A stretch of DNA of 64,000 nucleotides from Gammaproteobacteria bacterium. Its GTDB lineage: Bacteria > Pseudomonadota > Gammaproteobacteria > Pseudomonadales > Ketobacteraceae. The DNA is taken from positions 1 to 64,000 of the forward strand of contig JABLXQ010000038.1 in the NCBI GenBank assembly GCA_013178375.1. Direction: 5' to 3'. Shown here piece after piece: positions 38,695 through 59,062 of this stretch. The notes beneath the pieces are model-generated. The model ran no database searches, had not been told where the DNA came from, and saw only the letters and a program-made list of their open reading frames with translations. The number at the start of each line of letters is the position of its first letter. Position 1 is the first letter of the stretch. A program made the position numbers and the translations under genes.

Positions 38695-38735
38695 GGTGTT
38701 GTCCCTTAACTGAAAAGTTAGGCAAGAAAGAAAGA

Positions 38736-38770
38736 GCGAGCCCCGGGATCGAAAGGTTCCGGGTGCTCGC
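38736..38770 (+). terminator. Hairpin after flagellin 2
   Basis: GCGAGC (38736-38741) pairs with GCTCGC (38765-38770), with inner CCGG/CCGG pairing. Only a short GTTT follows, so termination may be partial and let some transcript reach flaG. Confidence 0.65.
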
Positions 38771-38796
38771 GTTTCCATTGTTATAAGGTGGCAGTC

Positions 38797-39246: not shown

Positions 39247-39275
39247 ACTATTTGTGCGCCAGGAATGGCTGGCCC

Positions 39276-39302
39276 TAAAGATTGCTAGCCGGGTGCCGAT
39301 AA
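39276..39302 (+). promoter_or_regulatory. Sigma-28 promoter of fliD
   Basis: TAAAGATT, 11 nt, GCCGATAA, only one or two bases off consensus, 111 bp before fliD. It should drive fliD, fliS and the fliT-like gene. Confidence 0.93.
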
Positions 39303-39413
39303 CCAAAACAGTATGGAGTGATGTTACGACGAATAGATTGGTCTGTTAATTGCTAGATTACCTGGTGCTGTCAGTAATCTGTCAGGCACAGAGGAATCTG
39401 CAGAGAGGTTAAA

Positions 39414-40826: not shown

Positions 40827-40850
40827 CCTCATTTCAGCAGGTAAACGTAC

Positions 40851-41276: not shown

Positions 41277-41279
41277 CTT

Positions 41280-41594
41280 ATGTTGGCGCAGCTGATCGAC
41301 GGATTCAATGAACGCATGCTGCGGGCGGTCGAAGCCCGCGATTATGAAGAGCTGCGCACGCTGGATATAGCCTGCCTCCGGTTTATGTCAGAAAACCTGC
41401 CCCCGAAACAATTGGATGAAGCAGGGCTGCTGGCAGTGAAAGACAGCCTTGAACGTCTGCAGAAAACCTATCGCACCGCGGTGACCACTTGCACTGCAGC
41501 CCGCGATTTGGTGCAGGAGGAACTGCAGGCTGCTGGCCGCGGGCGGCGCAATACCATCCAATATCTTGACGTGGCGAGGAACCTGGGTTCTTGA
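41280..41594 (+). CDS. Small FliT-like flagellar protein
   Basis: A 104-residue, all-helical acidic/basic protein 3 bp downstream of fliS. Position and size match FliT, the FliD export chaperone and regulator, but sequence similarity of FliT proteins is low and I see no decisive motif. The central LRFMSENLPPKQLDEAGLLAVKDSLERLQKTY region could form two helices. Its stop overlaps an in-frame start (TGATG) of the next open frame, so the flagellar transcript may continue into the modification island. Confidence 0.6.
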   Translation: MLAQLIDGFNERMLRAVEARDYEELRTLDIACLRFMSENLPPKQLDEAGLLAVKDSLERLQKTYRTAVTTCTAARDLVQEELQAAGRGRRNTIQYLDVARNLGS

Positions 41595-41626
41595 TGACCC
41601 GGTTCGCGCGAAGCGGAGAAAACGCA

Positions 41627-42823
41627 ATGTCCGTTCAGTCCATCAGCATGCCCTACCTGATTCCCGATATGCCCAGCGCTGAAGAGGTGCTGCCGTTCCT
41701 GCGCGAGATTGACGAAAACCGCTGGTACTCGAATTTTGGCCCGCTGGTGCTGCGGCTGAACGACCAGATCAAAGCCAATCATTTTGCCGGTGAAGACGTG
41801 CATACCCTGTTGTGCAGCACCGGTACAGCCGCGCTTGAGCTGGGTTTGGCCTGCCTTGGGCTGAAACCGGGTGCTCGCGTGCTCGTGCCTGCGTTTACCT
41901 TCCCTGCTTCGGCCAATGCCATCCAGAACTGCGGTTTTGAACCCGTATTCTGTGATGTGGATGAACAGAGCTGGGTGCTGACGCCCGAAATTGCATTTGA
42001 AGCTCTGCTGCGCACGCGCATTGATGCGGTGATGCCGGTGGCCGCGCTGGGTCGCCCTTTGCCGGCAAGCCAGTGGGACCGCTTTTGCGAGGAAACCGGC
42101 TTGCCGGTGCTGATCGACGCCGCTCCTGCGCTGGGTAACCAGCGGGTCGGCAAACATCTGGTGGTTGCCTACAGCATGCATGCAACCAAAGCATTTGGAA
42201 TCGGCGAGGGCGGTGTGCTGGCAACTGCCGATGCAGACCTGATTGCCCGCGCCCGTCGCATCTGCAACTTCGGCATGGATGGCGTGGGGCGGGTGATTAT
42301 GCAGGGTACCAACTGCAAGCTCAGCGAATATCATGCCGCCGTCGGTTTGGCGCAGATGCAGCGCTGGCCTGCCCGTCAACTGAAGCGCGCCCGCATCGAA
42401 ACCGCTTACCACGCACACATGCAGTTGCACAAAGATCTGTGGGCAACCCAGTCTTTTGTCGACAGACCGCCGGAACATGATGTGCTGGTAACATTGCCGG
42501 TGCGCAACAGCCGTTCCACCATGCCGGTTCGCCTGAGCGATCATGTCGCCATCGACATCCATGATGTGCAGGAACGGCTGGCGGAAAAAGGAATTGGAAC
42601 CCGGCTGTGGTACAACCCGGCGCTGCATCGCCATCCTAACTGGATGGGCCACCGGCAGATCCATCGCGCAGGTCTGCACAGCCTGGCCACCGTGGATTCC
42701 CTCAACAACCGGTTGATCGGCCTGCCGTTCCACAACTTCCTGTCTCCCGAAGACATTGCCCATGTAGTAACAAGCCTTTGGCAAATAGTTGAAAGCAGGG
42801 AATTTTCTGCTTCAATTAGCTAA
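41627..42823 (+). CDS. DegT/DnrJ/EryC1 family sugar aminotransferase-like protein
   Basis: A 398-residue PLP protein of fold type I. CSTGTAALELGL (PLP phosphate cup), PAFTFPASANAI, the Asp in LIDAAPALG (about 164) and the Schiff-base Lys188 in SMHATKAFGIGEGG are in place. Family members transaminate nucleotide-linked keto-sugars, and some act as dehydratases. GGAG lies nine bases before ATG 41627; ATG 41594, which overlaps the fliT-like stop, is possible. It opens the modification island, 33 bp before the HMW1C-like gene. An amino sugar is therefore a likely component, but the substrate is not known. Confidence 0.9.
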   Translation: MSVQSISMPYLIPDMPSAEEVLPFLREIDENRWYSNFGPLVLRLNDQIKANHFAGEDVHTLLCSTGTAALELGLACLGLKPGARVLVPAFTFPASANAIQNCGFEPVFCDVDEQSWVLTPEIAFEALLRTRIDAVMPVAALGRPLPASQWDRFCEETGLPVLIDAAPALGNQRVGKHLVVAYSMHATKAFGIGEGGVLATADADLIARARRICNFGMDGVGRVIMQGTNCKLSEYHAAVGLAQMQRWPARQLKRARIETAYHAHMQLHKDLWATQSFVDRPPEHDVLVTLPVRNSRSTMPVRLSDHVAIDIHDVQERLAEKGIGTRLWYNPALHRHPNWMGHRQIHRAGLHSLATVDSLNNRLIGLPFHNFLSPEDIAHVVTSLWQIVESREFSASIS

Positions 42824-42855
42824 GAGAGTTTGGCTGCTAATAACAATGGGGAATT

Positions 42856-44736
42856 ATGGATGCCTTGATCGCGCTGCGGCAGCTGGAATCTGCCGTGGCC
42901 GAGCGTCGTCACGGGGACGCGCAACAATATCTGCTCTGGTTGCTGGCCAATGCGTCGGTGCATCGCGCGCGGCAGGATAATGTCTTCCTTTCCAATTATT
43001 CCGATTCTGAAATCACCTATGTAGCCACCCGCATTGCCAGTGCCGCCTGCCAGCTGTTCGCTGACCCGCAGTTTGGCATCGATGACGACACCTTCTTCCT
43101 GTTTGCAAAATGCCACAGCCATCTGGCGACCATCCTTGGCATTTCCGGTTTCAACAACGGGGATCATGTGATCCAGAATCTGCTGGAGCCGGTGCAGGGC
43201 AACAAGGTGGAGACCATTACCCGACAAGCGTTCAACAAGATCCTGATCCTGCACGGCATTCATTCCGGTGTGAAGCTGCCGTACGAGCAGTATCTGCAGT
43301 CGCATCCAAAGCATTTGCTATGGCTGGTACTGGCGGCGGTAAGTGCGCAATTTTGCGTAGTAGAAAAGGAAAATGTTGCGCGCAACCAGCTGCTGGCGAA
43401 TCTTGCGCAGCGGCTGGACATCACCGCGTTCGATGAATCAATGCTGGGCTGGCTGTGTGTTGCCTGGATGCATTGCAGCTATGCCACCGTGCAGGGCCGC
43501 AACAATATCAAGCAGACCCTGAATCGCATGCTGGTGCACTGGATGGCGCAACTGGGATTTCCGCAGCAGCAACGGGTTGAGCCGGAAATGCGGCAGGGCA
43601 GGCCGGTGCTGCTGATCATCAATGAGCAGTTTCATTCCGGGCATGCCATGTACCGTTGTCTGGTGCCCATGATCGATGCCCTGCGCGAGCGATTCTATCT
43701 GGTGGGCATGACGGAGAAGGATAAATCGGACAGCACCGCCCGCAAGCATTTCGACAGCCACTATTATCTGGACTGGCAAGGCGGCAATCAGGCTGCGCTG
43801 AAAACCGTGCTGGCGCAGATGGCAAAAATAAAGCCCCATGCGATTTACTATCCCAGTGTTGGTATGTCGCTGCCGGTGATCCTGCTGGCCAATCTGCGTA
43901 TTGCGCCCTGTCAATTCATGAGCCTGGGGCATCCTGCCAGCACGCATTCCGCAGTCATGGACTACTGTCTGGTGGAACAGCAATATCTGGTGGATGCCAG
44001 CCTGTATTCTGAAACGGTGTTATGTGCTGACAACGGGGCGTTGGGATTTGTACCCCACACCGAACAACCGGCTCGGGCTGAGCTGCTACAGATGCGCACG
44101 ACGATGGCCTCGGGCGATCCGGTGCGGATTGCTATTCCCGCCTCGGCGATGAAAGTGAATGCGGAATTCATCGGCGCGCTGTGTGAAGTCCGGCGTCGGG
44201 TAAGTAAACCAGTGGAATTCCATTTCTTTCCCTACTTGAACCCGCTGGCGAGCGCGCTGTTCCGGAAGCAGGTCACCGCTTATCTGCCGGGTAGCATCGT
44301 GCATGCACCGATGCCATATCAGGCCTATCTGCGCACTATAGCCCGCTGCCAGCTGCATCTGAGCCCGTTTCCCTTCAGCAGCACCAACAGCCTGCTCGAT
44401 TCCCTGCTGCTGGGCATTCCGCTGGTGGTGAAGCGGGAAACCTCCACCGAGGCTGGCGTGGATGCGGCGATTGTCGACCAGGTCGGTATTGCCGCCATGC
44501 AACCGCAGGCCAGTATCCAGGACTACGTGAATTACACCTGCCGGCTGATCGAAGATGACGCGGCGCGGGAACAGCTTGGAGAGGCCGTTCGCAATACTGA
44601 TATTGAGCGCATTTTCTACGCCAGCCATCAGGTTCCGGCGGCTCGGACAGCCGCATTCGTACACGAAACGGTGCTGCGACACGTGGCGGGGGAAAAGCCA
44701 GCGGCAAGAATCCTGCAGGCGATGGGAAGCATCTGA
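42856..44736 (+). CDS. HMW1C-like cytoplasmic glycosyltransferase (GT41)
   Basis: A 626-residue protein. Residues about 1-245 are an all-helical domain without clear repeats; the rest is a GT-B fold. Three segments resemble HMW1C/ApNGT, the cytoplasmic N-glucosyltransferase: FHSGHAMYR with His263, QFMSLGHPASTHSAVMDY at about 353-370, and HLSPFPFSSTNSLLDSLLLG near 499-518 (nucleotide-sugar site). HMW1C enzymes add hexose to Asn in N-x-S/T of secreted adhesins. Here the gene lies beside fliD/fliS, so flagellin is the obvious candidate acceptor (inference). It could also act on a glycan. The stop overlaps the next ATG. Confidence 0.82.
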   Translation: MDALIALRQLESAVAERRHGDAQQYLLWLLANASVHRARQDNVFLSNYSDSEITYVATRIASAACQLFADPQFGIDDDTFFLFAKCHSHLATILGISGFNNGDHVIQNLLEPVQGNKVETITRQAFNKILILHGIHSGVKLPYEQYLQSHPKHLLWLVLAAVSAQFCVVEKENVARNQLLANLAQRLDITAFDESMLGWLCVAWMHCSYATVQGRNNIKQTLNRMLVHWMAQLGFPQQQRVEPEMRQGRPVLLIINEQFHSGHAMYRCLVPMIDALRERFYLVGMTEKDKSDSTARKHFDSHYYLDWQGGNQAALKTVLAQMAKIKPHAIYYPSVGMSLPVILLANLRIAPCQFMSLGHPASTHSAVMDYCLVEQQYLVDASLYSETVLCADNGALGFVPHTEQPARAELLQMRTTMASGDPVRIAIPASAMKVNAEFIGALCEVRRRVSKPVEFHFFPYLNPLASALFRKQVTAYLPGSIVHAPMPYQAYLRTIARCQLHLSPFPFSSTNSLLDSLLLGIPLVVKRETSTEAGVDAAIVDQVGIAAMQPQASIQDYVNYTCRLIEDDAAREQLGEAVRNTDIERIFYASHQVPAARTAAFVHETVLRHVAGEKPAARILQAMGSI

Positions 44737-45395
44737 TGGGAAAGTCCGTCGCCATCATGCAACCCTATTTTGTGCCATATCTAGGCTATTTCCGTCTATT
44801 CAGCAAAACGGATCTGTTTGTGATCTACGACTGCGTGCAGTTTCCGCGTCGGGGCTATGTGCATCGTAACCAGGTGCCCGATCGTAACGGCGCACCGCTG
44901 TGGCTGACGTTGCCACTGGAGAAATGCGACCAGAAAACCGCAATAATGGATCTGCAGTGGCGGCAGAGTGATTGCGCGGCGTTTGGTGACAGAATCCGGC
45001 AGCTGGCCGGTGACTGGCCGTTGCAGGTGCCTGCAGATTTGCGCGAACAATGGCTGGCGCAGCTAACCAATTTCAATGGCGGCGTGGTGGATTATCTTGA
45101 GCGCACGCTGGGCTTTGTCTGCCGTCAGCTGGATCTGCATTGTAATTTCATCCGGTCCAGCAGCCTGCATATCGATCCCGCGTTGAAAGGGCCGGATCGC
45201 ATTCTGGAAATCTGCCGGCAGGTGGGCACTACGCGTTATGTGAATTCACCGGGCGGTCGCGAGTTGTATCAAGCGGACACCTTTGCGCAAGCCGGGATTG
45301 AACTGGATTTTCTGGAACCGTTTCAGGGTAGTCACTGGAGCGTGGCATATCGATTGTTGACCGAAGAAAAGTCCCGGCTGATTGCCGAGTTGTAG
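44736..45395 (+). CDS. WbqC family protein
   Basis: A 219-residue protein. The N-terminal VAIMQPYFVPYLGYFRL block, DLFVIYDCVQFPRRGYVHRNQV and the C-terminal GIELDFLEPF region are the WbqC-like signature. Members sit in O-antigen and glycan clusters; their reaction is not established. Translational overlap (TGATG) with the upstream glycosyltransferase says the two are made together. Confidence 0.88.
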   Translation: MGKSVAIMQPYFVPYLGYFRLFSKTDLFVIYDCVQFPRRGYVHRNQVPDRNGAPLWLTLPLEKCDQKTAIMDLQWRQSDCAAFGDRIRQLAGDWPLQVPADLREQWLAQLTNFNGGVVDYLERTLGFVCRQLDLHCNFIRSSSLHIDPALKGPDRILEICRQVGTTRYVNSPGGRELYQADTFAQAGIELDFLEPFQGSHWSVAYRLLTEEKSRLIAEL

Positions 45396-45474
45396 TCGGG
45401 ATAGCGCAGCGTTCTGGCAATGAATTTGCACTGGTTGTCAGATCAGTGACGCAAGCCAGCGTTTCGTCAAATTT

Positions 45475-47194: not shown

Positions 47195-48219
47195 CAGAAC
47201 ACCATTTCAGTACCGAGCAGGTGATTTGCCCGCAGTGCGGCTCGCAACGCTGGCGCAAACTGACATCGCAATGGCTGTGCAAAAACGGCCATGTCATTCC
47301 AACCAGCGCCGGATTGCCGGATTTTTCTGCTGGCGGCACGCTGGCGGCGCAAGACAGAAAATTACGTGACCGACTCTATAACGGACTGCTGGGCCGCTAT
47401 TACGGCTTCATGATGCCGCTGCTGTCGATGCCGGCGCGCCCGATTTTGCAGTCACTGTCGCAGTGGGCAGTATTTTTTATTACCTGGATTGTACTGTTCG
47501 ATCTGCTGTGGGGAATGACAGTCGCATTCAGTGGGGGCCACACCGTCATCGGCTGTCTGCTGCTGGCGCTGCTGCTTGCCAGTGGCGCGGTACTCTATCG
47601 TCATTCCTATCTGTTCTGGCTGCTACTGGTAGCGATTCCGGTCAAGCTGATACTGCTGTTGCGGCCATACAAACCTGCGGAAACCTTTCCCGATGTACAC
47701 CGGCGCTGGGTGAATGCGCTGAAGGATGCCGGCTGCGAGCAGGTTCTGGACGTTTCCACTGGCACCTGCAATTCGTTGCTGCGTCATGGCTGGACCAGCC
47801 TGGGCGCACAACTGCATGGCGTTGATCTTTCCACCACCATGCTATTGCAAGGCGCCGACAATGCGGCTGCGGCCGGCGTTCCAATCCAGTTGTATGTGGC
47901 AGATGCGCAGGCAATGCCGTTTCCTGATGCCTGCATGGATCTGGTGTTGAATTATGGGGCTTTGAATGGGTATCAGGATCAGGCCAGGGCACTGGCGGAA
48001 ATGGCGCGGGTGCTGAAACCGGGCGGCGTGCTGGTATGTCTGGACGAACAGCTATATGACAGGGCTGGCAAGCTGGAAAAACTGTATTTTGAAAAGGTGC
48101 TGGCGTCGCACGACACGATCATGCGATTTCCACGGGAGGCAGTGCCCGTCGTGTTGGATCTGGTGGAGTTGCATCAGATTTACCAGTTTTACTATCTGGC
48201 GATTTTCAGGAAAGCGTAG
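47191..48219 (+). CDS. Membrane-inserted SAM methyltransferase with zinc ribbon
   Basis: A 342-residue protein of unusual build. A zinc-ribbon-like knuckle comes first (C13, C16, C30, H34), then two or three hydrophobic helices (about 90-165), then a class I methyltransferase with motif I LDVSTGTC near 186 and the ADAQAMPFPDACMDLVLNYGALN segment typical of UbiE-type enzymes. The N-terminal ribbon plus methyltransferase plan is like RlmA/UbiE-type proteins, but the membrane segments in between are not. It may methylate a lipid-linked or membrane-proximal glycan. GTG start at 47191 with GGAGG upstream overlaps the previous gene (GTGA). Confidence 0.78.
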   Translation: MTEHHFSTEQVICPQCGSQRWRKLTSQWLCKNGHVIPTSAGLPDFSAGGTLAAQDRKLRDRLYNGLLGRYYGFMMPLLSMPARPILQSLSQWAVFFITWIVLFDLLWGMTVAFSGGHTVIGCLLLALLLASGAVLYRHSYLFWLLLVAIPVKLILLLRPYKPAETFPDVHRRWVNALKDAGCEQVLDVSTGTCNSLLRHGWTSLGAQLHGVDLSTTMLLQGADNAAAAGVPIQLYVADAQAMPFPDACMDLVLNYGALNGYQDQARALAEMARVLKPGGVLVCLDEQLYDRAGKLEKLYFEKVLASHDTIMRFPREAVPVVLDLVELHQIYQFYYLAIFRKA

Positions 48220-48221
48220 CC

Positions 48222-49709
48222 ATGTCGGAGAGCCGAAATTTTTACATCTATGTCGGATCTGGAGTACGGGACTGGCTGATTGATGAATTCGATCAGGGCA
48301 AGGATCTTGGCTATCTGAAAAAGCAGCTGAAACAGCGGGCAGACCTGAAGGTTGGGATTGATCAGGTGGCTGAGGCAGTTGTGCTCAGCTATGTGGACGC
48401 AGGCGAGAGTGAGCGTGCTTATCAGATAGCTTCTGCATTCAGGGACCAGATGCCATCAGCCAATATGCATAATCTGGTGATCAAGTGTCTGCTGTCGTCC
48501 TGGGAATACACCCAGACGGGGTTTCTGGAGGAGAGCCGCCGCTGGGCGGCACTGTATGCCAACGAATTCGAGCGCCCGGAGCTGTCTTGTCGGAACGAGA
48601 AACCGCGAATCGGTTTCGTCTGCGACTACGGCTCCACGGTGTTTGGCGAGAATGCCATTTTTCCGATGTGTCATGTACTGGGAATGTCGGGTCTTGATGT
48701 CTATTACTACAACTTTGAGCGGGTGGCGTTCAATATCAGCGGCGACTCGATTCGCATCAGAAATGTTCACACGCTCAGTGTCAACGATCTTTCCAGAGCG
48801 ATTCGGGATGACCGGATCGACATTCTGATCGATCTCAATGGCCGTCTGCGTGAACATCATCGTCTGGGCGTGTTTGCGCTCAGGTCGGCTCCCGTGCAGA
48901 TCAATTATTTCAATCTGGTGGGCACGATGGGCATGAAAAATTATGACTACATCATTGCCGACGAGACGCAGGTGCCAGATCGGGATTTTTCTTTCTATAC
49001 GGAAAAGGTGCTGCGACTGCCTTGTGGCGCCAATGGCGCATTCGCGTTCAAACGCGACGTCGATATTCCGTTACCGGAAGCGCGTACTCCGGGCAGACCT
49101 TTCACATTCGCGTCGTTCAATGCGTTCTTCAAAATCAATACCGTTCTGTTGGAAACATGGGCAGAAATACTCCGGCGCGTACCGGATTCCATCATCGTCA
49201 TCAAGTGCCAGGAAACCGCGCGCGACCGGGTTATTCGCAAAATCGCGCGGGTTTTCGGCCGTGCCGGGGTTGATCTGAACAGGGTCATGATCGAGGGCTG
49301 GTCTTCGCTTCATCACCTGCGCCGGCAATACGGTGAAGTGGATCTTTGCCTGGATACGTTTCCCTACAGTGGCGGTTCCACCACGCTAAATGCGCTGTGG
49401 CAAGGCGTGCCCGTATTGAGCTGGTGTGGCGAGGGATGGCGAGCCAGAACCTCGGCATCCATGTTGCACGCAGCAGGAATGGAGGCGCTGGTGATGGGTT
49501 CACGGCAGGAATACGTGGAGAAGGCAGTGAGTCTGGCGATGGGATCTGATGGGACACGGCTGTTGCGGCGGGATCTGGCGGATTCCATAAACCGCAATCC
49601 CTACTTTTCTCCCGACCGGGTTTATCAGGAACTGGCGGATGCGCTACGGAGTGTGTGGCAGTCCAGTCTCAACCGGCAGGCCGCCCCGGATCTGTCCGGC
49701 CAAGCATGA
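48222..49709 (+). CDS. SPINDLY-like O-glycosyltransferase (GT41), copy 1
   Basis: A 495-residue protein. A short helical N-terminus (about 1-115, TPR-like) precedes a GT41 catalytic region: RIGFVCDYGS at about 127, DILIDLNGRLREHHRLGVFALRSAPVQINYFN near 203-234, and CLDTFPYSGGSTTLNALWQG near 383. The usual motif His after RIGFV..D is replaced (STVFGENA), a feature shared with copy 2. GT41 enzymes put GlcNAc or fucose on Ser/Thr of cytoplasmic proteins. It begins 2 bp after the methyltransferase gene. Acceptor unknown; flagellin or another flagellar axial protein is likely from context. Confidence 0.82.
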   Translation: MSESRNFYIYVGSGVRDWLIDEFDQGKDLGYLKKQLKQRADLKVGIDQVAEAVVLSYVDAGESERAYQIASAFRDQMPSANMHNLVIKCLLSSWEYTQTGFLEESRRWAALYANEFERPELSCRNEKPRIGFVCDYGSTVFGENAIFPMCHVLGMSGLDVYYYNFERVAFNISGDSIRIRNVHTLSVNDLSRAIRDDRIDILIDLNGRLREHHRLGVFALRSAPVQINYFNLVGTMGMKNYDYIIADETQVPDRDFSFYTEKVLRLPCGANGAFAFKRDVDIPLPEARTPGRPFTFASFNAFFKINTVLLETWAEILRRVPDSIIVIKCQETARDRVIRKIARVFGRAGVDLNRVMIEGWSSLHHLRRQYGEVDLCLDTFPYSGGSTTLNALWQGVPVLSWCGEGWRARTSASMLHAAGMEALVMGSRQEYVEKAVSLAMGSDGTRLLRRDLADSINRNPYFSPDRVYQELADALRSVWQSSLNRQAAPDLSGQA

Positions 49710-49719
49710 GAGTATGCTA

Positions 49720-51648
49720 ATGAAATCAGATCAATGTGTGCCGGATACGATCCAGCGTTATCAGGAACAATTGCAGAGTGCGGTAGATACATTTCTGGCG
49801 GCGGATTATGCAGGTACTTTCCGGCAGTGCGAACAGCTTCGGGTTGAGTTTGGTGATGAGCCGGAAGCGCTGAATGTGCAAGCCCTTGCGCTGGTGAATA
49901 TGCAATACCCGCGCGTGGCGAAAACGCGGTTGCTCACGGCACTAGCACTGAATCCGGATGTTGCCGATTACTGGCTGAATCTGGCAGAAGTGCATCTCTT
50001 GCTGGACGAGTCCGGTGATGCAATCCGGGCATTCCAGTCCGCCCACGACCGGGCGGAGGAGCCTGAACAGAAGCTGGAAATACTGATCCGGCTGGCTGAA
50101 ACACAGACCGTGCAACTGATGACGTCAGCAGCCTTGCCGGATGCGATTTCGGCTGATCCCGAGTCGGGTGAAAGCATGCACAAGCATTTCACACCGCGGC
50201 AACGCGATGAGTTGTCCATGCTGTACGATGCAAAGGCGCCGCTGGATGCGTGCAGCAGATTGATCGAACTCTGGATCGGGTATCGGCCGAGTCGCGTGCA
50301 GACCGCGCAGGCCATGGCGAGGGCGTTGCTGGACGAGGGCAGGGGTGATGAGGCTTATCGGCTGGCGCAAACATTTCACAACCAGGAACCTGGCGCACAG
50401 AGCCACAATCTGGTGGTGCAGACATTGTTGATGGTGAGTTTCGACTCGCGACAGGCTTTCTACGATGAGAGTGTCGAGTGGGCCAGACGTTATCAGCCGC
50501 ATCAGGACAGCATCGTCGAAAAGTTCCGGCTCTGGAATCCGGTGTGGGAATCCCGCGATCTGCGCATTGGCATCCTGTGCGATTACGCGGACACCGTATT
50601 TGGCAAAACAGCCATTTTTCCGTTGGTGGAAAGCTTCACCCGATACGGATTTCAGGTGTTCTTCTACAACTTTGGCACCACGGTGCTGAAGTACGGTCAA
50701 CCGGGTTGCACCCTGCACAATATCCGTCATCTGTCGCCGCAATCCCTGCATGACCAGATTGTGGCCGATCAGGTCACGGTATTGTTGGATCTGAACGGTC
50801 GGCTGCGTGATGACCAGCGCCTGGCGGTTGCCGTGCATCGCTCCGCTCCCGTGCAGATGGTGTACATGAATCTGCGGGGCACGACCGGCATTGCGGATTT
50901 CGATTTCACGGTGTCTGACGATGTCAGCATTCCAGTGGAAGAAGAAAAATTCTACGTGGAAAAAATAATTCGCCTGCCCTGCAAAGCCAAAACCGCATTG
51001 CAGTTCGAGCGGCTGGTTCCCGTCACCAGTACGCCGGCACTGACCCGGGGCTATGTGACCTATTGTTCCTTCAACGCGTTTTTCAAATTTAATGAACAGG
51101 TAGCAGATGCCTGGTCGACCATTCTAACGCAGGTACCGGGCTCCCATCTCTATCTGAAATGCGAGGAGTTCGTGCGGCCCCGCGTGCGTGCGCGGGCGAA
51201 GGCATTGTTGCGTGAGCGCGGAATTTCCGCTGATCGCCTGCGTCTGGAGGGACCAGCGGATTTGCGCACCATGCAGGCTTGCTATGCGGATGGGGATATC
51301 GCGCTGGACCCGTTTCCCTATTGCGGTGGTTCCACCACCATGCATGCGCTCTGGCAGGGTGTGCCGGTGCTGACCTATGAAACGCCGGGTTGGCGCGGTA
51401 CGGCCACGGCCGCCTTTTTGCATAGTATTGGGCGGAGTGACTGGATTTCGACGGCGCTGGACGACTATGTGAATAAGGCAGTGGCCATGGCCAGTGATGT
51501 GACTAAACTGGACGCTGAGCGGCAATGGCTGGCTCGCGAAATCCACAACTGCGCCTATTTCAATCCGGATCTGGTTTACACCCAACTGGCTGAAAAGCTG
51601 TTTGAAATCTGCCATTTACTTTCACAGCAACAATTTGGTGAAGCCTGA
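49720..51648 (+). CDS. SPINDLY-like O-glycosyltransferase (GT41), copy 2, with TPR repeats
   Basis: A 642-residue paralogue of the upstream gene with a longer, TPR-like N-terminal half (about 1-270; the repeat LNVQALALVNMQYPRVAKTRL, and later YWLNLAEVHLLLDESGDAIRAF, is clear). The catalytic half repeats the pattern: LRIGILCDYADTVFGKTAIFP, LLDLNGRLRDDQRLAVAV, RGTTGI and LDPFPYCGGSTTMHALWQG. The motif His is again missing (DTVFGKTA). GAGAG lies seven bases before ATG 49720; ATG 49714 is possible. The two copies likely arose by duplication and diverged in acceptor choice. Confidence 0.82.
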   Translation: MKSDQCVPDTIQRYQEQLQSAVDTFLAADYAGTFRQCEQLRVEFGDEPEALNVQALALVNMQYPRVAKTRLLTALALNPDVADYWLNLAEVHLLLDESGDAIRAFQSAHDRAEEPEQKLEILIRLAETQTVQLMTSAALPDAISADPESGESMHKHFTPRQRDELSMLYDAKAPLDACSRLIELWIGYRPSRVQTAQAMARALLDEGRGDEAYRLAQTFHNQEPGAQSHNLVVQTLLMVSFDSRQAFYDESVEWARRYQPHQDSIVEKFRLWNPVWESRDLRIGILCDYADTVFGKTAIFPLVESFTRYGFQVFFYNFGTTVLKYGQPGCTLHNIRHLSPQSLHDQIVADQVTVLLDLNGRLRDDQRLAVAVHRSAPVQMVYMNLRGTTGIADFDFTVSDDVSIPVEEEKFYVEKIIRLPCKAKTALQFERLVPVTSTPALTRGYVTYCSFNAFFKFNEQVADAWSTILTQVPGSHLYLKCEEFVRPRVRARAKALLRERGISADRLRLEGPADLRTMQACYADGDIALDPFPYCGGSTTMHALWQGVPVLTYETPGWRGTATAAFLHSIGRSDWISTALDDYVNKAVAMASDVTKLDAERQWLAREIHNCAYFNPDLVYTQLAEKLFEICHLLSQQQFGEA

Positions 51649-51700
51649 TGAAAATACTGGCAACTGTGATCACATTCATACTGGCAGATACCCACACATC

Positions 51701-52921
51701 ATGAAGCGTTTACTTTTTCTGGGTGGTGCCGATATACAAGTGGATGCGATCTGCAGCGCCAAGGATCTGGGTTATGAAGTCATAACCTGTGACTACCTGC
51801 CGGATAATCCGGGGCACCGCTATTCGCACCGCTATTTCAATGTCAGTACGACGGAGAAGGATAACGTGCTGGAGCTGGCGCGAAAACTTGAAATCGATGG
51901 CATTTCCGCCTACGCGTCAGACCCTTCTGCGCCAACTGCGGCCTATGTGTCTGATGCGATGGGGTTACCCGGCAACTCGTATCAATCCATCAATACCCTG
52001 TCGAACAAACTGTTGTTCAGGGCACAGCAATGGCGCTTGAACATGCCTTGTCCGCGCTTTGCGGATGGCAGTGACATGGCCGCCGTGCGGCCACTGCTGT
52101 ACGACGTCGGCAAAGTGGTAGTGAAGCCGGTGGATTCTTCCGGCAGCAAGGGTGTGCATATCGTGGAGCGCGGGGGTTCGCCACTGGCGCTGGAATCTGC
52201 CATCAAGGATGCGCACGGCTTCTCCCGTTCCGGGTCTGTGATCGTGGAGGAATTCATTCCGCGCATTGGCTCGCTGATGTCTGGCGATTTCCTGATTCAC
52301 GAAGGCAGTATCGTATTTCAGTGTTACGGTGACGTCCATTTCAATGACTGGATCAATGGCCTGGTGCCAAGATCCATCTCGTTGCCTGCAAGCAAGGATT
52401 CAGCATTCTTCGACAAGGTCCGGCTGCAGGCGCAGGCCCTGATAACATCGTTGAACATCCGGCAGGGAGTGTTCAACGCCGATGTTATCGAGGATGCACG
52501 CGGGAATCCCGTAATCATCGATATTGGCGCGCGCAATGGCGGCAATCTGCTGAACAATATCATTCACTATCATACGGGTGTGGATCTGGTCGAGCTGTCG
52601 TTGCGACAAAGTGTTGGCGATCCCATCCGCGTACCGGACGAGTACGTGCCTTCCGGCTGTTACGCGCACAATGTCATTCACAGTGAAGAGGAAGGCACGT
52701 TCGATTCCATCACTTTGTCACCCGAGATACAACCGCTGGTGATCCGCTCGCTGATCAGCAAGAAGCCAGGCGACCGGGTCAGGCGATTCATCAGCTCGGC
52801 CTACCGGGTCGGTCTGATTTTGCTGAAATTTGATTCTGTTGAGCAGATGCACCGGATTCTGGGTGACATCCGCAGCCATGTAAAAGTGAACGTGAGGAAA
52901 CGCAATGAAACAGGCGGCTGA
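51701..52921 (+). CDS. ATP-grasp ligase-like protein
   Basis: A 406-residue cytoplasmic protein. An N-terminal Rossmann-like preATP domain (MKRLLFLGGADIQVDAI) precedes the ATP-grasp fold: VVVKPVDSSGSKGVHIV (ATP-binding Lys and glycine loop, about 141-157), EEFIPR, and the metal site VIIDIGARNGGN. ATP-grasp enzymes activate a carboxylate as acyl-phosphate and join it to an amine or thiol. Overlap by 17 bp with the next gene, a cysteine-synthase-like enzyme, suggests they act together, for example by making and attaching an unusual amino acid. ATG 51701 is chosen as the start of the Rossmann strand; its ribosome site is weak. Confidence 0.85.
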   Translation: MKRLLFLGGADIQVDAICSAKDLGYEVITCDYLPDNPGHRYSHRYFNVSTTEKDNVLELARKLEIDGISAYASDPSAPTAAYVSDAMGLPGNSYQSINTLSNKLLFRAQQWRLNMPCPRFADGSDMAAVRPLLYDVGKVVVKPVDSSGSKGVHIVERGGSPLALESAIKDAHGFSRSGSVIVEEFIPRIGSLMSGDFLIHEGSIVFQCYGDVHFNDWINGLVPRSISLPASKDSAFFDKVRLQAQALITSLNIRQGVFNADVIEDARGNPVIIDIGARNGGNLLNNIIHYHTGVDLVELSLRQSVGDPIRVPDEYVPSGCYAHNVIHSEEEGTFDSITLSPEIQPLVIRSLISKKPGDRVRRFISSAYRVGLILLKFDSVEQMHRILGDIRSHVKVNVRKRNETGG

Positions 52922-53885
52922 TACGAAAATTCATCATTTCCACAAGGTCGCGCGCAGCCAGGGCAATCTGCGAAATGATGCCAGGGTATTTTCCTCTGTG
53001 GTGGACATGGTGGGTAACACACCGCTGGTGGAATATCACACCCGTGAATCCGGTGACGCCCGGATTTTCGTCAAGCTGGAAAGCTACAATCCCACCGGCA
53101 GCATCAAGGATCGCGCGTGTGTCTATATCATCAAGGATGCGATCAACCGTGGTCTGGCGACCTCGGACAAGGTTCTGCTTGATGCCAGCAGCGGCAACAT
53201 GGCTTGCGCGCTGGCCTATTTCGGCAGGGTCATGGGTTTTTCGGTCAAGGTGGTCTGCAATTCCAAGCTGACAGCGGACAAGCGGCAATTCATCGAATAC
53301 TTTGGTGCCGAACTGGAAATGTTCGGCGATCTGACCATCGAAGGTAACCGTCGTTGCCGGGCGATGGCCGAACAGGAGCCAGAGCGTTATTGCTTTCTGG
53401 ATCAGCTGCACAATCCAGCCAACGTGGATGCTTCATTTTTCATGCTGGGCCCCGAAATCCTGCGGGACATTCCAGATGTTACCGCTGTGGTGGGCTCCAT
53501 GGGATCTGGTGGCAGCATGTGCGGTGTGGCGAAGTACATTACCCGCAACGCCCCGGCCACACAGATTTTTACCTGTCAGGCGGCGCCGGGCACCAAAATT
53601 CCCGGCACCGGTGGATTTGCAGATGGTGACTACATTACGCCGTTCATCCGCGAACTGATAAATGCGCCGCTGCAAAACGATACCTTCATGGTGAATCAGG
53701 CAGCAGCCGAGCAGAGAACTCGTGAACTGGCAATGCAGGGAATTTTCGTGGGCTTCCAGGGCGGTGCGGTGCTGGATGCCACGCTCGCGGCGATTGCGAA
53801 GCACGGTATCAAGGGCAACGTAGTGATGGTCATTGGTGATTCCGGCTGGAAAAACATGGAAAAGCTGATGGGAAAACATCAGTGA
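52905..53885 (+). CDS. Cysteine synthase-like PLP enzyme (fold type II)
   Basis: A 326-residue member of the cysteine synthase/cystathionine beta-synthase family. The Schiff-base Lys68 in PTGSIKDR, the substrate loop SSGNMA (TSGNT in CysK) and the PLP phosphate loop GSMGSGGSMCG are visible. The loops differ from true CysK/CysM, so another beta-replacement product is likely, such as a modified serine, 2,3-diaminopropionate precursor or O-ureidoserine-type compound. GAGGA precedes the ATG. It overlaps both the ATP-grasp and the methyltransferase genes, forming a tight three-gene module. Confidence 0.85.
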   Translation: MKQAADTKIHHFHKVARSQGNLRNDARVFSSVVDMVGNTPLVEYHTRESGDARIFVKLESYNPTGSIKDRACVYIIKDAINRGLATSDKVLLDASSGNMACALAYFGRVMGFSVKVVCNSKLTADKRQFIEYFGAELEMFGDLTIEGNRRCRAMAEQEPERYCFLDQLHNPANVDASFFMLGPEILRDIPDVTAVVGSMGSGGSMCGVAKYITRNAPATQIFTCQAAPGTKIPGTGGFADGDYITPFIRELINAPLQNDTFMVNQAAAEQRTRELAMQGIFVGFQGGAVLDATLAAIAKHGIKGNVVMVIGDSGWKNMEKLMGKHQ

Positions 53886-54865
53886 TGCAGCCAGTCAGGC
53901 AAGATCATATGGATAACGTCTGGTGCGAGCGATTGGGAGTGGAGCTGGGGAAGCCGGATGCGCTGGGAATTTGCCATATCGGATTTTCCAGCAGCGAAGC
54001 CTATGATTTTCACCAGCGTTACACCAAAGGCGCCCATCTGCGGCGGCTGGAGACGGTGCCTTTCCATCAGTCGCAATGGGAGTCGCCCTATTACCGCAAG
54101 ACACTGGACCGCTTTCTGGAAAATGCCGATCTGGCACAGGCCATGATTCTGGATTTCGGTTGTGGTGACGGACGCTTTGCCGACTACCTGCTACAGCGCG
54201 GCGCGCACCAAATCGTGTGCGTGGATTTTGACTATGCCACCCTGGCTGCTTTCGGTGAACACCTGACTGAAACCGGTGATCGCGACAAGGTTCTGCTCCT
54301 GCACACAGACTTCGATCACTTGCCGTTTGCGGCCGATACGTTTGACGTCATTTTGGCTATTGGCTCTTTGTATTACCTCGACCGCCAATATGAAACCGGC
54401 ATTGCCCGGTTGCGCGATATGCTGGGACAGGATGGAGTCCTTATTACCAGCGATCCGTCAATTGAAGGATTCATGTTGCGTGCGCTCGTTTTCAACGGCT
54501 TGAACGAGTCGCTGGATATTTTCCGTTCCCGTCGCTTTCGGGAAGTGACCGATGCATCGGCGCCCGGCTTCAGGGCGTTTGATGACGGTGAGTGGCGGGA
54601 TATATTCCGGGCTGCGGGCCTCACTGTGCTGGACCGGCAGGGAATCAGTCTGTTTCATAATTTGTTGCGAGTGCTATTTTTGAAAGGGATAGTACCGGAA
54701 GAACAGTTACGGGAACGGCAGGACGACATAGAAAGCATGTTTGATTATCTTCATGATCATGGCAGTCTGTTCAAGCATGTTGTTTGGAAGTTGGGGAAAA
54801 AACGAAATAGCGATGGGGCAGCGCCGTCTCAGCATGTTGTTGACGACGCATTTTTTATTTTATGA
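53882..54865 (+). CDS. Class I SAM-dependent methyltransferase
   Basis: A 327-residue protein with motif I ILDFGCGDGRFADY (about 89-102), the acidic loop CVDFDYAT, HTDFDHLPFAADTFDVILAIGSLYYL and a C-terminal extension of about 120 residues that may bind the acceptor. It overlaps the PLP enzyme gene by 4 bp. It is one of four methyltransferases in this island; the acceptor (sugar, amino acid or conjugate) is not known. A second ATG at 53909 is possible. Confidence 0.85.
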   Translation: MMQPVRQDHMDNVWCERLGVELGKPDALGICHIGFSSSEAYDFHQRYTKGAHLRRLETVPFHQSQWESPYYRKTLDRFLENADLAQAMILDFGCGDGRFADYLLQRGAHQIVCVDFDYATLAAFGEHLTETGDRDKVLLLHTDFDHLPFAADTFDVILAIGSLYYLDRQYETGIARLRDMLGQDGVLITSDPSIEGFMLRALVFNGLNESLDIFRSRRFREVTDASAPGFRAFDDGEWRDIFRAAGLTVLDRQGISLFHNLLRVLFLKGIVPEEQLRERQDDIESMFDYLHDHGSLFKHVVWKLGKKRNSDGAAPSQHVVDDAFFIL

Positions 54866-54892
54866 AGACCGGATGCTAAAGGAAATTTTGAC

Positions 54893-56455
54893 ATGGATGT
54901 GATGATAGGTCTGTTCTCGAAGTATATTAACAATCACGGTGATTCTGATCTTGCAGCTCGCTTGGCGCAGTTCTCAGGTCAGGTGATTAGTGTTCAGTTT
55001 GCGGAAGCCAGACAGACAGCTTACGAAATATGCGAGATTCCGAAATATAACCCTATTGGTATCTATGCTGTAGGCCTGGTGGCGTATCTGCGTGGAGACT
55101 TCAAGTCAGCCAAAAATAGCTGGAATATCCTTCAGCAGTCGGGGCATCGCTCGCCGTTGGTCCTGCTTTCGAATGGGATGGTGGATCTCAAGCTTGGGAA
55201 GGCCGGTGAAATTCCAGAACTGGTGTCTCATGTGAAAAGCCGATTTCCGGAATTTTTCGAAATAGCAATCCTGGAAGCGCTTCATGCGCGAGCTATTGGT
55301 AATTACAGTCAAGCCAAGGAAGTTATTGAGCGGTTGTTAAATGAGGCTGTGCTCAGTGATGATGACGCGCGGGAGTTAGGCGCTCTGTATTCAGATGTCA
55401 TTTCCAGGCTCGGGTTTCACGAGGATGCTATTGCGCTATGCAATGAAATCGTAGCCAGCTCTGACGCCATTCGATCTGATGTGGTAAGGGTTCTTCTGGA
55501 ATCCTATGCCGCGACCGAGCAGCGTGACGCTGCAATTGACTTGTTGGCCAATATATCTCTTGATGTCTTGTCGCTTGATGATGCTCCTCGGGCTGCCTCT
55601 GCTTTGGTAACTCTTGGTCTCCACAAGGTAGTTATTTCTTTTCTGGAACTTTGTTTGGAGAGAGATCCTGCCAATACAGACTTGCTTTCTGTGCAGGTGG
55701 TTGCGCTGTCCGAATCCGGAGGCGATGCAAGACCTTCCCGCAAGCGACTTGATCTAATTCTTTTCAAGAAAAAAAAGGGTATTCCATTCTTTATCAGTGA
55801 CGATTTTGTTGAATGTTACAGACCATTTCATGCTTTGACTCTGGTCAACTGGGACGGTTGCCATACCCTGTACCACGCCTTGCATCATATTGTCCGTAAT
55901 CAGGTCGAGGGCGATATTGTTGAGTGTGGAGTATTTCGGGGAGGCGTTAGCGCGTTCATGGCCCATGTTCTGGTTCGCAATAAATCTGTCTTCAGGAAGC
56001 TCTATCTGTGCGATACCTATGAGGGAATGACGGTGCCGGACGATAATGATTTGTTAGGCGCTGACACCACCAAAACCAGTTCTGCTGTTAACCTGTATTT
56101 TCCAGGATTGGCAAAAATTGACGAAAACAGCGTTTTAAAGCTGGTACGTGAAACAGGCTATCCGGACAACAATGTCGTGATTGTGAAGGGGCCGGTCGAG
56201 GAGACCCTGCCGCAAAATGCACCCCAAAAAATATGTATCCTGCGGCTGGATACTGACTGGTATAAGTCGACTTTGCATGAACTGGAAACAATGATGCCGA
56301 GAGTGGCTAAACATGGCATTGTGATTGTCGACGATTACGCCAGTTGGGATGGCTCTCGCAAAGCGTTTCATGAATACGCGGAACGGCATTCGTTACGCTA
56401 TTTTCCGACCGTTGATATCGTTCAGGGATCGCTAACTTTCGTCAAGATGGAATGA
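54893..56455 (+). CDS. Repeat domain fused to a TylF-type O-methyltransferase
   Basis: A 520-residue fusion. Residues about 1-270 are TPR-like helical repeats (for example the AKNSWNILQQSGHRSPLVLLS stretch). Residues about 290-520 are a TylF/MycF macrocin O-methyltransferase domain: GDIVECGVFRGGVSAFMAHV (SAM site), LYLCDTYEGM, RLDTDWYKST and VIVDDYASW with metal-binding Asp residues. TylF enzymes methylate sugar hydroxyls. The repeats may hold a glycoprotein substrate. The first part of the gene looks richer in A and T than its neighbours, which could mark later acquisition. AAGGA precedes the ATG. Confidence 0.86.
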   Translation: MDVMIGLFSKYINNHGDSDLAARLAQFSGQVISVQFAEARQTAYEICEIPKYNPIGIYAVGLVAYLRGDFKSAKNSWNILQQSGHRSPLVLLSNGMVDLKLGKAGEIPELVSHVKSRFPEFFEIAILEALHARAIGNYSQAKEVIERLLNEAVLSDDDARELGALYSDVISRLGFHEDAIALCNEIVASSDAIRSDVVRVLLESYAATEQRDAAIDLLANISLDVLSLDDAPRAASALVTLGLHKVVISFLELCLERDPANTDLLSVQVVALSESGGDARPSRKRLDLILFKKKKGIPFFISDDFVECYRPFHALTLVNWDGCHTLYHALHHIVRNQVEGDIVECGVFRGGVSAFMAHVLVRNKSVFRKLYLCDTYEGMTVPDDNDLLGADTTKTSSAVNLYFPGLAKIDENSVLKLVRETGYPDNNVVIVKGPVEETLPQNAPQKICILRLDTDWYKSTLHELETMMPRVAKHGIVIVDDYASWDGSRKAFHEYAERHSLRYFPTVDIVQGSLTFVKME

Positions 56456-56471
56456 CTCTGTTCGGGATTTA

Positions 56472-57191
56472 TTATTTGACAATATATGCCGTCGGCATCC
56501 ACCCATTCGGAAAAGTCCTTACCTGCACATTACCAAAAAACTCCCGCACCGCTCGCGTCTCTCCCGGCGCAACGTCAAAGTTGTACTGGTCCAGTATCAG
56601 CATGCCGCCCTTGTTCAGGCGCTCCCAGAAGTAGGGCAGTACTGCGCTGACAATTTCATGCTGACCCGCATCCAGAAAAACGATCTTGAATTGCAGGTGT
56701 GAGTAACGCTCGAAGAATCCCTTCAACTCCGTCATCACATCCATTTTGTGCACTTTCAGAATATTATCCAGCCCCTGGCATTCCACCAGTTTTTTCACCC
56801 TCTCATAGGATTCGGTGTAGCCGCCGGGCGTAATGTTCTTGTCGGCCTCGGTGGGCTGGTTGCCCTGGAACCAGTCGAAGCCGTGCACCTGGGTCATGGC
56901 GTACTGTTCAAAGTGCTTGATCAGCTTGGCGAAGAAGAATGACACCGCGCCGCGAAACATGCCGATCTCGGCGATATGGCCAGCCAGTCCCAGGGTCTGG
57001 CGGTAGCTTTCATAGAAGGAAATGAAGCGGGCCAGGGTGAGATGGCCGGTGAAGCACGGAAAATGGTGAATGAAATCTTCGGTCTCATAGCCCAGTGTCT
57101 TGATGGTGTTCATGCCTTCATAGAACTGGGGGCGCAGGTTGTCGTGCTTGGTACTTTCGAAATCGCCGGGTGTATATTCCTTGCCGCGCAT
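56472..57191 (-). CDS. TylF/class I methyltransferase-like protein
   Basis: A 239-residue protein. HIAEIGMFRGAVSFFFAKLI is the SAM-binding motif, and KIVFLDAGQHE, MLILDQYNFDVAPGETRAV supply the later acidic positions. It resembles the TylF and other glycan O-methyltransferases. ATG 57191 has GAGGA eight bases upstream; the frame extends upstream into the next gene but is not credible. It is last in a three-gene minus-strand operon with the acetyltransferase and rmlA, and converges on the TPR-TylF gene with a 16-bp gap. Confidence 0.83.
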   Translation of the reverse strand: MRGKEYTPGDFESTKHDNLRPQFYEGMNTIKTLGYETEDFIHHFPCFTGHLTLARFISFYESYRQTLGLAGHIAEIGMFRGAVSFFFAKLIKHFEQYAMTQVHGFDWFQGNQPTEADKNITPGGYTESYERVKKLVECQGLDNILKVHKMDVMTELKGFFERYSHLQFKIVFLDAGQHEIVSAVLPYFWERLNKGGMLILDQYNFDVAPGETRAVREFFGNVQVRTFPNGWMPTAYIVK

Positions 57192-57201
57192 GATTTTTTC
57201 C

Positions 57202-57864
57202 TCAGATGTTTTTAAGGTCGTCGGTGCTGATGTCGGCGGCCTCTGATTTCGGTCCGATGAACACCTGTTTTTCTTTGGTGGGCTTGAGGATGACTGCGCC
57301 GGCGCCAATCAGGCAGTAGGGCGCAATTTTTATGTTGTCGCGAATCGTGCAGTTCACGCCCAGAAAACAGTTGTTGCCGATTTCCACTGCGCCGGACACC
57401 ACTGCATGTGATGCGATGAATACGTTGTCGCGGATTTTGGTGTGATGGCCGATGTGATTGCCCGACCACAGGATGCAGTTGTTGCCAATTTCCACATAAG
57501 GCTGAATGACGTTGTCATCCAGGATCATGCAGTTCTCACCGATCTTGGTGTGGCTGTGAATGCGGGCATGGGGCGATATATAGGTAATGAAACGGTAGCC
57601 ACGCGCCTTGGCGTTGAGGTAGTGCTCTTCGCGGTAGCGGTTCATCTTCTTGTAGCTGAGCGGCAGGAACAGTTCGACGCGATCCGGCGGGTAGTGTTCT
57701 TCCAGCGTTTCGAATGGCACCACTGGCTTGCCCTGGAACGTGGGTTCTTCGATGTATTCCTGGTCGAGGGTGAACGCCACGATGTTGTGCTTCGTGTCGC
57801 GCTCAAGATAGGCGACGGCCACTTCCGCGAACTGGCCACTGCCGAACATTACGATGTCTGCCAT
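57202..57864 (-). CDS. NeuD/PglD-type sugar O/N-acetyltransferase
   Basis: A 220-residue protein with an N-terminal nucleotide-sugar-binding Rossmann segment (ADIVMFGSGQFAEVAVAYLE) and a C-terminal left-handed beta-helix of hexapeptide repeats (VIQPYVEIGNNCILWSGNHIGHH onward), which binds acetyl-CoA. The GHHTKIRDNVFIASHAVVSG run carries the catalytic His of this family. It would acetylate an amino or hydroxyl group of a nucleotide sugar. It lies 39 bp after rmlA and 10 bp before the methyltransferase gene, so a dTDP-sugar is the likely substrate. Confidence 0.9.
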   Translation of the reverse strand: MADIVMFGSGQFAEVAVAYLERDTKHNIVAFTLDQEYIEEPTFQGKPVVPFETLEEHYPPDRVELFLPLSYKKMNRYREEHYLNAKARGYRFITYISPHARIHSHTKIGENCMILDDNVIQPYVEIGNNCILWSGNHIGHHTKIRDNVFIASHAVVSGAVEIGNNCFLGVNCTIRDNIKIAPYCLIGAGAVILKPTKEKQVFIGPKSEAADISTDDLKNI

Positions 57865-57903
57865 TTGATTCCCCTTCTGCCCGTTGGCATCCCGGTTGTT
57901 TCC

Positions 57904-58797
57904 CTAATTCGCTGAAAAACGCCGGTTTTCGTCCAGTATCCGTTGCAGGTATTTTCCGTACCCGCTCTTTTGCAGCGGCGCGATCAGGCGCTCAAGTTGA
58001 TCGTCATCGATGTACCCCATCAGATAGCTGATTTCCTCCGGGCAGCAGATTTTCAACGACTGCCGGTCCTCGATCAGCTTGATGAAATTGCTGGCGTCCA
58101 GCAGCGCGTCGTGAGTGCCGGTATCGAGCCAGGCGGTGCCGCGCCCCAACAATTCCACATTCAGATCGCCACGCTGCAGATAGGCATTGATGACATCGGT
58201 GATATCCAGTTCGCCCCGGGGTGATGGTTTGACGGTGCGGGCTATGTCCACCACATCCTGGTCGAAAAAATAGATTCCGGTGATCGCATAGGAGGATTTG
58301 GGTTGCGCGGGTTTTTCCTCGATGCTGGTGACGTTGCCCTGGCGGTCGAAGGCCACCACACCGTAACGCTGCGGATCTCGCACATAGTAGCCAAACACGG
58401 TGGCGCCGTGGGTGCGTCGGGTGGCATTTTGCAACACCATCTGTAGCCCCGCGCCATAGAAAACATTGTCACCCAACACCAGGCAAACGTTGCTGCCTGC
58501 CAGAAAGGATTCGCCGATCAGGAATGCCTGCGCCAGTCCGTCCGGTGATGGCTGTTCGGCATACTGGAATGACATGCCCCACTGCGAGCCGTCCCCGAGC
58601 AGATGTTCGAAGGCTTCCCGGTCGCGCGGCGTGGTGATAATCAGCACCTCGCGAATTCTGGCCATCATCAGGGTGGAAACCGGATAGTAAATCATGGGCT
58701 TGTCATACACGGGCATTAGCTGCTTGCTGACGCTGCAGGTGAGGGGGTGCAGGCGGGTTCCAGTGCCTCCTGCCAGGATGATGCCCTTGTAACTCAT
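57904..58797 (-). CDS. rmlA: Glucose-1-phosphate thymidylyltransferase
   Basis: A 297-residue nucleotidyltransferase that makes dTDP-glucose from dTTP and glucose-1-phosphate. [30 protein letters not shown], the LGDNVFYG metal site and VEEKP-like [22 protein letters not shown] are hallmark motifs. Full length. It opens the minus-strand operon with the NeuD-type and TylF-type genes. The usual partners rmlB, rmlC and rmlD are not in the window, so the 4,6-dehydratase must lie elsewhere. It is divergent from fleQ. Confidence 0.96.
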
Positions 58798-58926
58798 GAT
58801 GGCTGCATTTCCGTATATAACGAACGGTTCAGAAGTTGCGCTTCACATATAAAAGTAGATGAGCTTTGTCCGCTGTCCAGACGGAAAAACTGCCCTGGCT
58901 TGACGGATATGCCAAAGCTGACTCGA

Positions 58927-58962
58927 ATTGGTCAAAATATTCACGCCATTAATTTGACCAAT
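58927..58962 (+). promoter_or_regulatory. 10-bp inverted repeat upstream of fleQ
   Basis: ATTGGTCAAA (58927-58936) and TTTGACCAAT (58953-58962) are exact inverted copies with a 16-bp spacer, centred about 118 bp before fleQ. Each arm carries a GTCAAA/TTTGAC core that recalls half of the reported FleQ recognition sequence. It may be an autoregulatory or other operator. The rest of the 265-bp fleQ-rmlA gap shows no confident -10/-35 boxes. Confidence 0.6.
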
Positions 58963-59062
58963 CAGGGTGTTGTTGCCTTTACTGAGTAATACGCATAACA
59001 ACCGGCGTCAAAATTCGAACATGAACGGAGAGTGGCGGGAGCCCGCCAATACTGAGAACAGC

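Follow-up and report, generated by a model that had tools for sequence, protein, structure and literature searches.

What are a carboxylate ligase, a relative of cysteine synthase and a methyltransferase doing side by side in a locus bounded by flagellar genes? The question is raised by three overlapping genes on contig JABLXQ010000038.1 of a gammaproteobacterium of the family Ketobacteraceae (assembly GCA_013178375.1), the first 64,000 nucleotides of which are referred to here as the window. The three genes, all on the plus strand, are:

51701..52921, + strand: ATP-grasp carboxylate-amine ligase with an L-amino-acid-ligase-like C-terminal domain, 406 amino acids (LAL_C2 above the cut-off)
52905..53885, + strand: fold-type II pyridoxal phosphate (PLP) enzyme, a divergent relative of CysM/CysK, 326 amino acids (PALP, PF00291, 165 bits)
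53882..54865, + strand: class I S-adenosylmethionine-dependent methyltransferase, 327 amino acids (Methyltransf_25, 58.6 bits)

The first-pass annotation had claimed three overlapping genes of these kinds, and the Pfam domains confirm each family. The ligase and PLP genes begin with ATG (at 51701 and 52905) and the methyltransferase gene with GTG (at 53882), while the stops fall at 52921, 53885 and 54865, so that the first pair overlaps by 17 nucleotides and the second by four, and the three form a single operon. The GC content of the trio (0.53–0.55) is close to that of the window (0.567), and the base composition therefore shows no sign of a recent arrival. The best reading of the trio, with a probability of roughly 0.55, is a cassette through which an amino sugar in the flagellin glycan receives a modified amino acid, probably a non-proteinogenic one.

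The association of the three genes is not due to chance, because two phage contigs carry members of the same families directly next to one another. These contigs were recovered by scanning viral contigs with an alignment of PLP proteins, and then with the closer pair, which led to the IMG/VR records IMGVR_UViG_3300017730_003106 (L149) and IMGVR_UViG_3300002514_007974 (L068/L150). Viral scans with the single ATP-grasp or PLP protein of the window returned nothing, probably because such patterns are specific to the query, given that the alignment queries did match. The first-pass annotation had made its reading hinge on the three genes being found together in other genomes, which is what these phages provide.

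In both phages, the order is ATP-grasp, methyltransferase, PLP enzyme and then a HAD-type phosphatase, whereas in the window the PLP gene precedes the methyltransferase, and the linkage has therefore survived rearrangement. A short DegT-like gene (mini-DegT) precedes the ATP-grasp gene in one phage and follows the HAD gene in the other. The proteins of the window share 54–56% identity with those of the phages for the PLP enzyme, 40% for the ATP-grasp and, depending on the alignment, 33–38% for the methyltransferase; between the two phages, the values are 63% (PLP enzyme), 52% (methyltransferase), 47% (ATP-grasp), 72% (mini-DegT) and 64% (HAD). In maximum-likelihood trees, the PLP enzymes of the trio form one clade (support 100/100, stem 2.38), as do the ATP-grasps (99/99), and both trees have the topology ((phage, phage), window). 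The two phage stretches share this five-gene block and, weakly, a region resembling a late sigma factor, and little else. No relative of the mini-DegT or HAD gene was found in the window, where the full-length DegT may serve instead. The mini-DegT proteins themselves (L149:1074-1709 and L150:11353-12015) have 211–220 amino acids, much shorter than normal sugar aminotransferases, with similarity to DegT mainly in the first 80–90 residues.

The larger contig (L150, 70 kilobases) encodes baseplate wedge proteins and a late sigma factor, and the smaller one (L149, 12.7 kilobases) carries a PhoH gene. A search for terminase gave no match in the 70-kilobase contig and one weak match in the 12.7-kilobase contig, which may be its PhoH gene, given that this also matches the terminase family. 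The gene content and the collection suggest that the phages are marine. In the T4-like contig, the interval L150:5370-15156 encodes a NeuB–TIM-barrel fusion protein along with a cytidylyltransferase, epimerases and a DapA-like protein, possibly a phage-encoded pathway of the nonulosonic acid type. Hypermodification of phage DNA was considered as a role for the module and set aside, since its neighbours in one phage include genes for glycosyltransferase, NeuB and cytidylyltransferase.

The PLP enzyme retains the framework of the CysM/CysK O-acetylserine sulfhydrylases (OASS), with which it has in common the fold, the Schiff-base lysine (K68, in NPTGSIKDR) and an intact GSGGS phosphate loop. Its AlphaFold model (pLDDT 88.4) matches Escherichia coli CysM (2bht) with a Z score of 40.3 over 287 residues, at 1.8 A, although several cysteine-synthase-like structures tie in this comparison, and the fold is thus silent on the reaction. 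The departures are found in the active site. The substrate loop reads SSGNMACA, as opposed to TSGNTG or near variants in the relatives (one has TSGNMG), the glutamine Q285 of GIFVG[FW]Q replaces the serine of the G(I/M)S motif at N1 of the PLP, and the Arg210-Arg211 pair of CysM is replaced by Gly-Gly. In OASS-A numbering, the first two changes correspond to Thr72 to Met and Ser272 to Gln. Ser272 of OASS contacts N1 of the PLP (PMC12626222), and Arg210 of CysM is a residue of the pocket (PMC3805590). Both SSGNMA and the glutamine are present in all three PLP proteins of the trio (window and two phages), whereas every other relative with a readable motif lacks the glutamine and keeps the serine.

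The NCBIfam profiles give a similar picture, with scores of 187.1 bits for cysKM (cut-off 344.15) and 173.3 for cysM (cut-off 394.2), and none of the cut-offs for cysteine synthase, SbnA, cysteate synthase or CBS is reached. Elsewhere in the genome are other PALP proteins that score higher, some of them CysM- or CysK-like, so the PLP enzyme is probably not needed for the supply of cysteine. These features suggest that it represents a separate subfamily, in which the second substrate is probably different. The first-pass annotation depended on this protein not being an ordinary cysteine synthase and, in its motifs and profile scores, it is not.

The parallel that the same annotation drew with D-cycloserine and siderophore routes found no support, given that CysM resembles the PLP enzyme at least as closely as O-ureidoserine synthase or SbnA does. 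An SbnA-like identity was dropped at 137.6 bits (cut-off 349.95), and no SbnB-like or ornithine-cyclodeaminase-like partner was seen among the island genes scanned. A DcsD-like (O-ureidoserine synthase) identity was not favoured by the scores either, the corresponding structure (3x43; 24% identity, Z 39.0) being one among many equal matches. The D-cycloserine pathway does combine a CysK-fold O-ureido-L-serine synthase with the ATP-grasp DcsG, but no other gene of that pathway was seen here, in scans that were not aimed at such partners.

The subfamily appears to be thinly spread. In four overlapping samples (57 genomes of relatives and 398, 390 and 369 genomes from the phylum, order and class, respectively), no member was found beyond this genome, and the matches were limited to CysM-type proteins at 35–36% identity; within these samples, the congener has no PLP enzyme as close as those of the phages. 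One scan of a genome contig collection for close relatives returned a match of only 31%, the plasmids gave none at E ≤ 1e-40, and a collection of phage records searched with the phage PLP homologue gave none at E ≤ 1e-20. The rarity of the trio is suggested by the overlapping genome samples, but is not proven by them.

The ATP-grasp protein exceeds the Pfam cut-off for LAL_C2 (34.4 versus 29.4 bits) and falls just under that for ATP-grasp_3 (21.1 versus 23.2). Its residues K103, K142, E183 and R278 do not vary across 17 aligned sequences. The nearest solved structures are 4dim and the L-amino acid ligase 3vot, with RizA among the characterised ligases, but the model is weak (pLDDT 68.7) and these matches carry little weight. 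The L-amino acid ligases BL00235 and RizA have the fold and the LAL_C2-type C-terminal domain in common with the ligase of the window, but only at about 20% identity or less, and the lineage of the latter is distinguished by a neighbourhood of sugar aminotransferase and glycan genes. Its closest bacterial relatives (34–41% identity; G022, G170, G186, G121 and G236) lie beside or near a DegT gene. DesI, the dTDP-4-keto-6-deoxyglucose aminotransferase, is the best match of two of these DegT proteins, one of which (in L031) scores 476 bits, below the cut-off of 650. A relative on a Bacteroides plasmid has the order DegT, ATP-grasp, ATP-grasp. This association with DegT aminotransferases argues for a sugar amine as the acceptor of the ligase. 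On a plasmid of Brachyspira hyodysenteriae (L152), a further relative shares a cluster with an rfb gene and three more genes for ATP-grasp amidoligases.

The methyltransferase matches Methyltransf_25, Methyltransf_11 and Methyltransf_23, but none of its family matches is informative about the substrate, and no relatives were found at E ≤ 1e-20 in the 398 genomes of the phylum. It is retained beside the PLP gene in both phages.

The first-pass annotation had placed the trio in a glycan island, which is borne out in a narrower form, as a flagellin-glycosylation island of approximately 17 kilobases that occupies the interval between fliS and fleQ (41277-58966). FliD, FliS and three flagellin genes lie upstream of the island (33767-41276), and FleQ lies downstream of it (58967-60496). 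In addition to the trio, the island contains a GH130-like protein and methyltransferases, including two of the TylF type. Its genes include the following:

41591..42823, + strand: DegT sugar aminotransferase, presumed source of the amino sugar (PF01041, 217 bits; best NCBIfam match DesI)
42856..44736, + strand: HMW1C/NGT-like glycosyltransferase (PF18071; NF049992, 285 bits, under the cut-off)
44736..45395, + strand: WbqC-like protein (PF08889, 124 bits; homologue at the same site in the relative G280)
48222..49709, + strand: GT41-like glycosyltransferase (PF13844, 114.6 bits)
49639..51648, + strand: tetratricopeptide repeat (TPR) and GT41-like glycosyltransferase (PF13844, 86.4 bits)
54893..56455, + strand: TylF/CmcI-type methyltransferase with a fused TPR-like N-terminus, located downstream in the trio operon (PF05711, 131.6 bits)
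57202..57864, - strand: NeuD/PglB/VioB-family sugar acetyltransferase (TIGR03570, 172.8 bits, over the cut-off)
57904..58797, - strand: RmlA glucose-1-phosphate thymidylyltransferase (TIGR01207, 474 bits versus a cut-off of 360.65)

Amino-sugar pathway genes (DegT, RmlA, NeuD and glycosyltransferases) and an ATP-grasp gene are thus found together in a flagellar glycan locus, and two RmlB genes over the cut-off are present outside the island, in the same genome.

A possible route can be outlined from these components. RmlA and RmlB would produce dTDP-4-keto-6-deoxyglucose (dTDP, deoxythymidine diphosphate), which DegT would aminate to a dTDP-4-amino-4,6-dideoxyhexose. Starting from serine or an activated form of it, the PLP enzyme would produce an amino acid by way of an aminoacrylate, using a nucleophile that is not simply sulfide, and the methyltransferase would methylate either this new amino acid or the sugar. 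The ATP-grasp ligase would then activate the carboxylate of the amino acid as an acyl phosphate and form an amide with the 4-amino group of the sugar, a role that would parallel that of the acyl enzymes VioB/S/R of the Pseudomonas viosamine island. Finally, the sugar would be carried to flagellin by the glycosyltransferases of the island. An amino acid attached to a sugar had been hinted at by the first-pass annotation, and is the best reading of the locus given the DegT neighbours of the ATP-grasp lineage.

The sequence itself establishes the identity and overlap of the genes, their island context, their linkage in the two phages, the intact catalytic lysine and phosphate loop of the PLP enzyme, the conservation of the ATP-grasp residues and the DegT neighbours of the ATP-grasp lineage, while all substrates and products of the scheme, the order of its steps and flagellin as the acceptor are inferred. 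Several points weigh against the scheme. The two active-site departures mean that beta-replacement chemistry is not assured, the DegT of the window falls far below the DesI cut-off (TIGR04427, 147 versus 650 bits), and the NeuD and WbqC proteins of the island could acylate the same amine. The acceptor of the ligase could also be another amino acid, as the closest structures that have been characterised are those of L-amino acid ligases.

This last point leads to a quite unlikely alternative, in which a methylated amino acid made by the PLP enzyme and the methyltransferase is joined to a second amino acid by the ligase, yielding a free dipeptide-like metabolite whose genes lie in the island incidentally. 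The structural proximity of 3vot and RizA and the LAL_C2 match would suit such a product, but homologous ATP-grasps occur in glycan clusters beside sugar aminotransferases, the locus belongs to a flagellar glycan island, the operon genes scanned include none for export or resistance, and both phage copies adjoin mini-DegT and glycosyltransferase-like genes. It is unlikely, too, that the sugar is capped by an ordinary amino acid, with serine or threonine as the substrate of a PLP enzyme that works as a dehydratase, lyase or racemase, and the sugar as that of the methyltransferase. The altered N1 ligand and substrate loop could accommodate another fold-type II reaction, and the methyltransferase families are uninformative as to substrate, but the best profile and fold matches are of cysteine-synthase types, with cysKM at 187 bits and the best dehydratase profile at 71. 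A simple cysteine synthase with unrelated neighbours, which the fold and the PALP domain would fit, is highly improbable in view of a score far under all cysteine synthase cut-offs (187 versus 344 bits), the conservation of the altered motifs in the phages at 54–56% identity, the linkage of the trio there and the other CysM- and CysK-like genes of the genome.

The attachment of amino acids to flagellar sugars also has precedents. The type B flagellin of Clostridioides difficile is described as bearing Fuc3N with taurine-Ala-Gly, for which an ATP-grasp gene is required (PMC5207245, PMC5207246). As in the window, the ATP-grasp gene of this system (CDR20291_0244-0247) lies in a flagellar glycan operon, and the amino acids are reported to be amide-linked to the amino sugar (PMC5207246, PMC5207245), but the partners described there are a FemAB-like acyltransferase and an ornithine-cyclodeaminase-like gene, rather than a CysM-fold PLP enzyme and a methyltransferase. 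The flagellar sugar of Clostridium botulinum is stated to be N-methyl-glutamyl legionaminic acid (PMC5207245). The sfmABCDE flagellin modification cluster of Shewanella oneidensis resembles the trio in its ATP-grasp and methyltransferase (PMC3765264), but differs in its nonulosonic acid core, and the available portion of that account describes no PLP enzyme. No CysM-fold enzyme is described for the C. difficile, C. botulinum or Shewanella systems in the available portions of these sources. The viosamine island of Pseudomonas syringae (vioA, M, T, S, B, R and acp) has a DegT, methyltransferase, acylating enzyme and glycosyltransferase, like the present one, and produces an N-acylated 4-amino sugar on flagellin (PMC3927599). 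Its acyl group is 3-hydroxybutyryl, formed by enzymes dependent on an acyl carrier protein, whereas here the ATP-grasp and PLP enzymes would supply an amino acid. No paper in the open literature searched brings together cysteine synthase, ATP-grasp, methyltransferase and O-antigen. Amino-acylated flagellar sugars are already known, and the novelty lies in an enzyme set that is undescribed in that literature and is shared with phages.

A tentative extension, to which somewhat less than an even chance is given, is that the PLP proteins form a new subfamily (SSGNMACA / G[FW]Q) whose product, a new amino acid, is used for sugar aminoacylation, and that the cassette has moved between T4-like marine phages and the flagellin glycosylation island of a bacterium. 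Flagellin decoration is a fast-changing surface that can be read by hosts, phages and immune receptors. If the extension is correct, the aminoacyl-sugar chemistry of bacterial flagella would also be built by phages, and a self-contained cassette for an unusual amino acid, found in both, would illustrate how chemistry of this kind is transferred. The route to a new sugar modification would be open to genetic testing, and the role of the N1 contact could be probed in a PLP subfamily that has glutamine in place of the contacting serine.

The interval between fliS and fleQ is a hotspot across the family, in which DegT and the HMW1C-like glycosyltransferase are conserved in most of the relatives examined, and the remaining cargo is variable. 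The HMW1C-like gene lies next to DegT at this site in five relatives. In the congener (G274), identity with the window reaches 80% for FliD, 70% for FliS, 71% for DegT, 51% for the HMW1C-like protein, and 88% for both RmlA and FleQ, but the cargo (L059:6476-10826) consists instead of a distinct ATP-grasp accompanied by an FkbM-type methyltransferase and a Gfo/Idh oxidoreductase, possibly another amino-acyl cassette. DegT and the HMW1C-like protein are also retained in three further relatives (G278, G280 and G286), where the cargo is again different. In G286, a family scan identified acyl-group genes, with AMP-ligase, LuxE, FabA-like and transketolase-like families, and G278 also has acyl-group genes, judging from its similar gene order. 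Only DegT and the HMW1C-like protein are present in G275, and G277 and G281 have no island. Given a constant core and different cargo, the variation seems to lie mainly in the group placed on the amino sugar, by analogy with the Pseudomonas viosamine island (PMC3927599).

Two irregularities were observed within the island of the window. One gene is broken into two frames (46446-46949 and 46889-47194), neither of which has a Pfam match, by a frameshift or sequencing error near position 46930. The TPR-TylF fusion gene (54893-56455) has a GC content of 0.477, below that of its neighbours.

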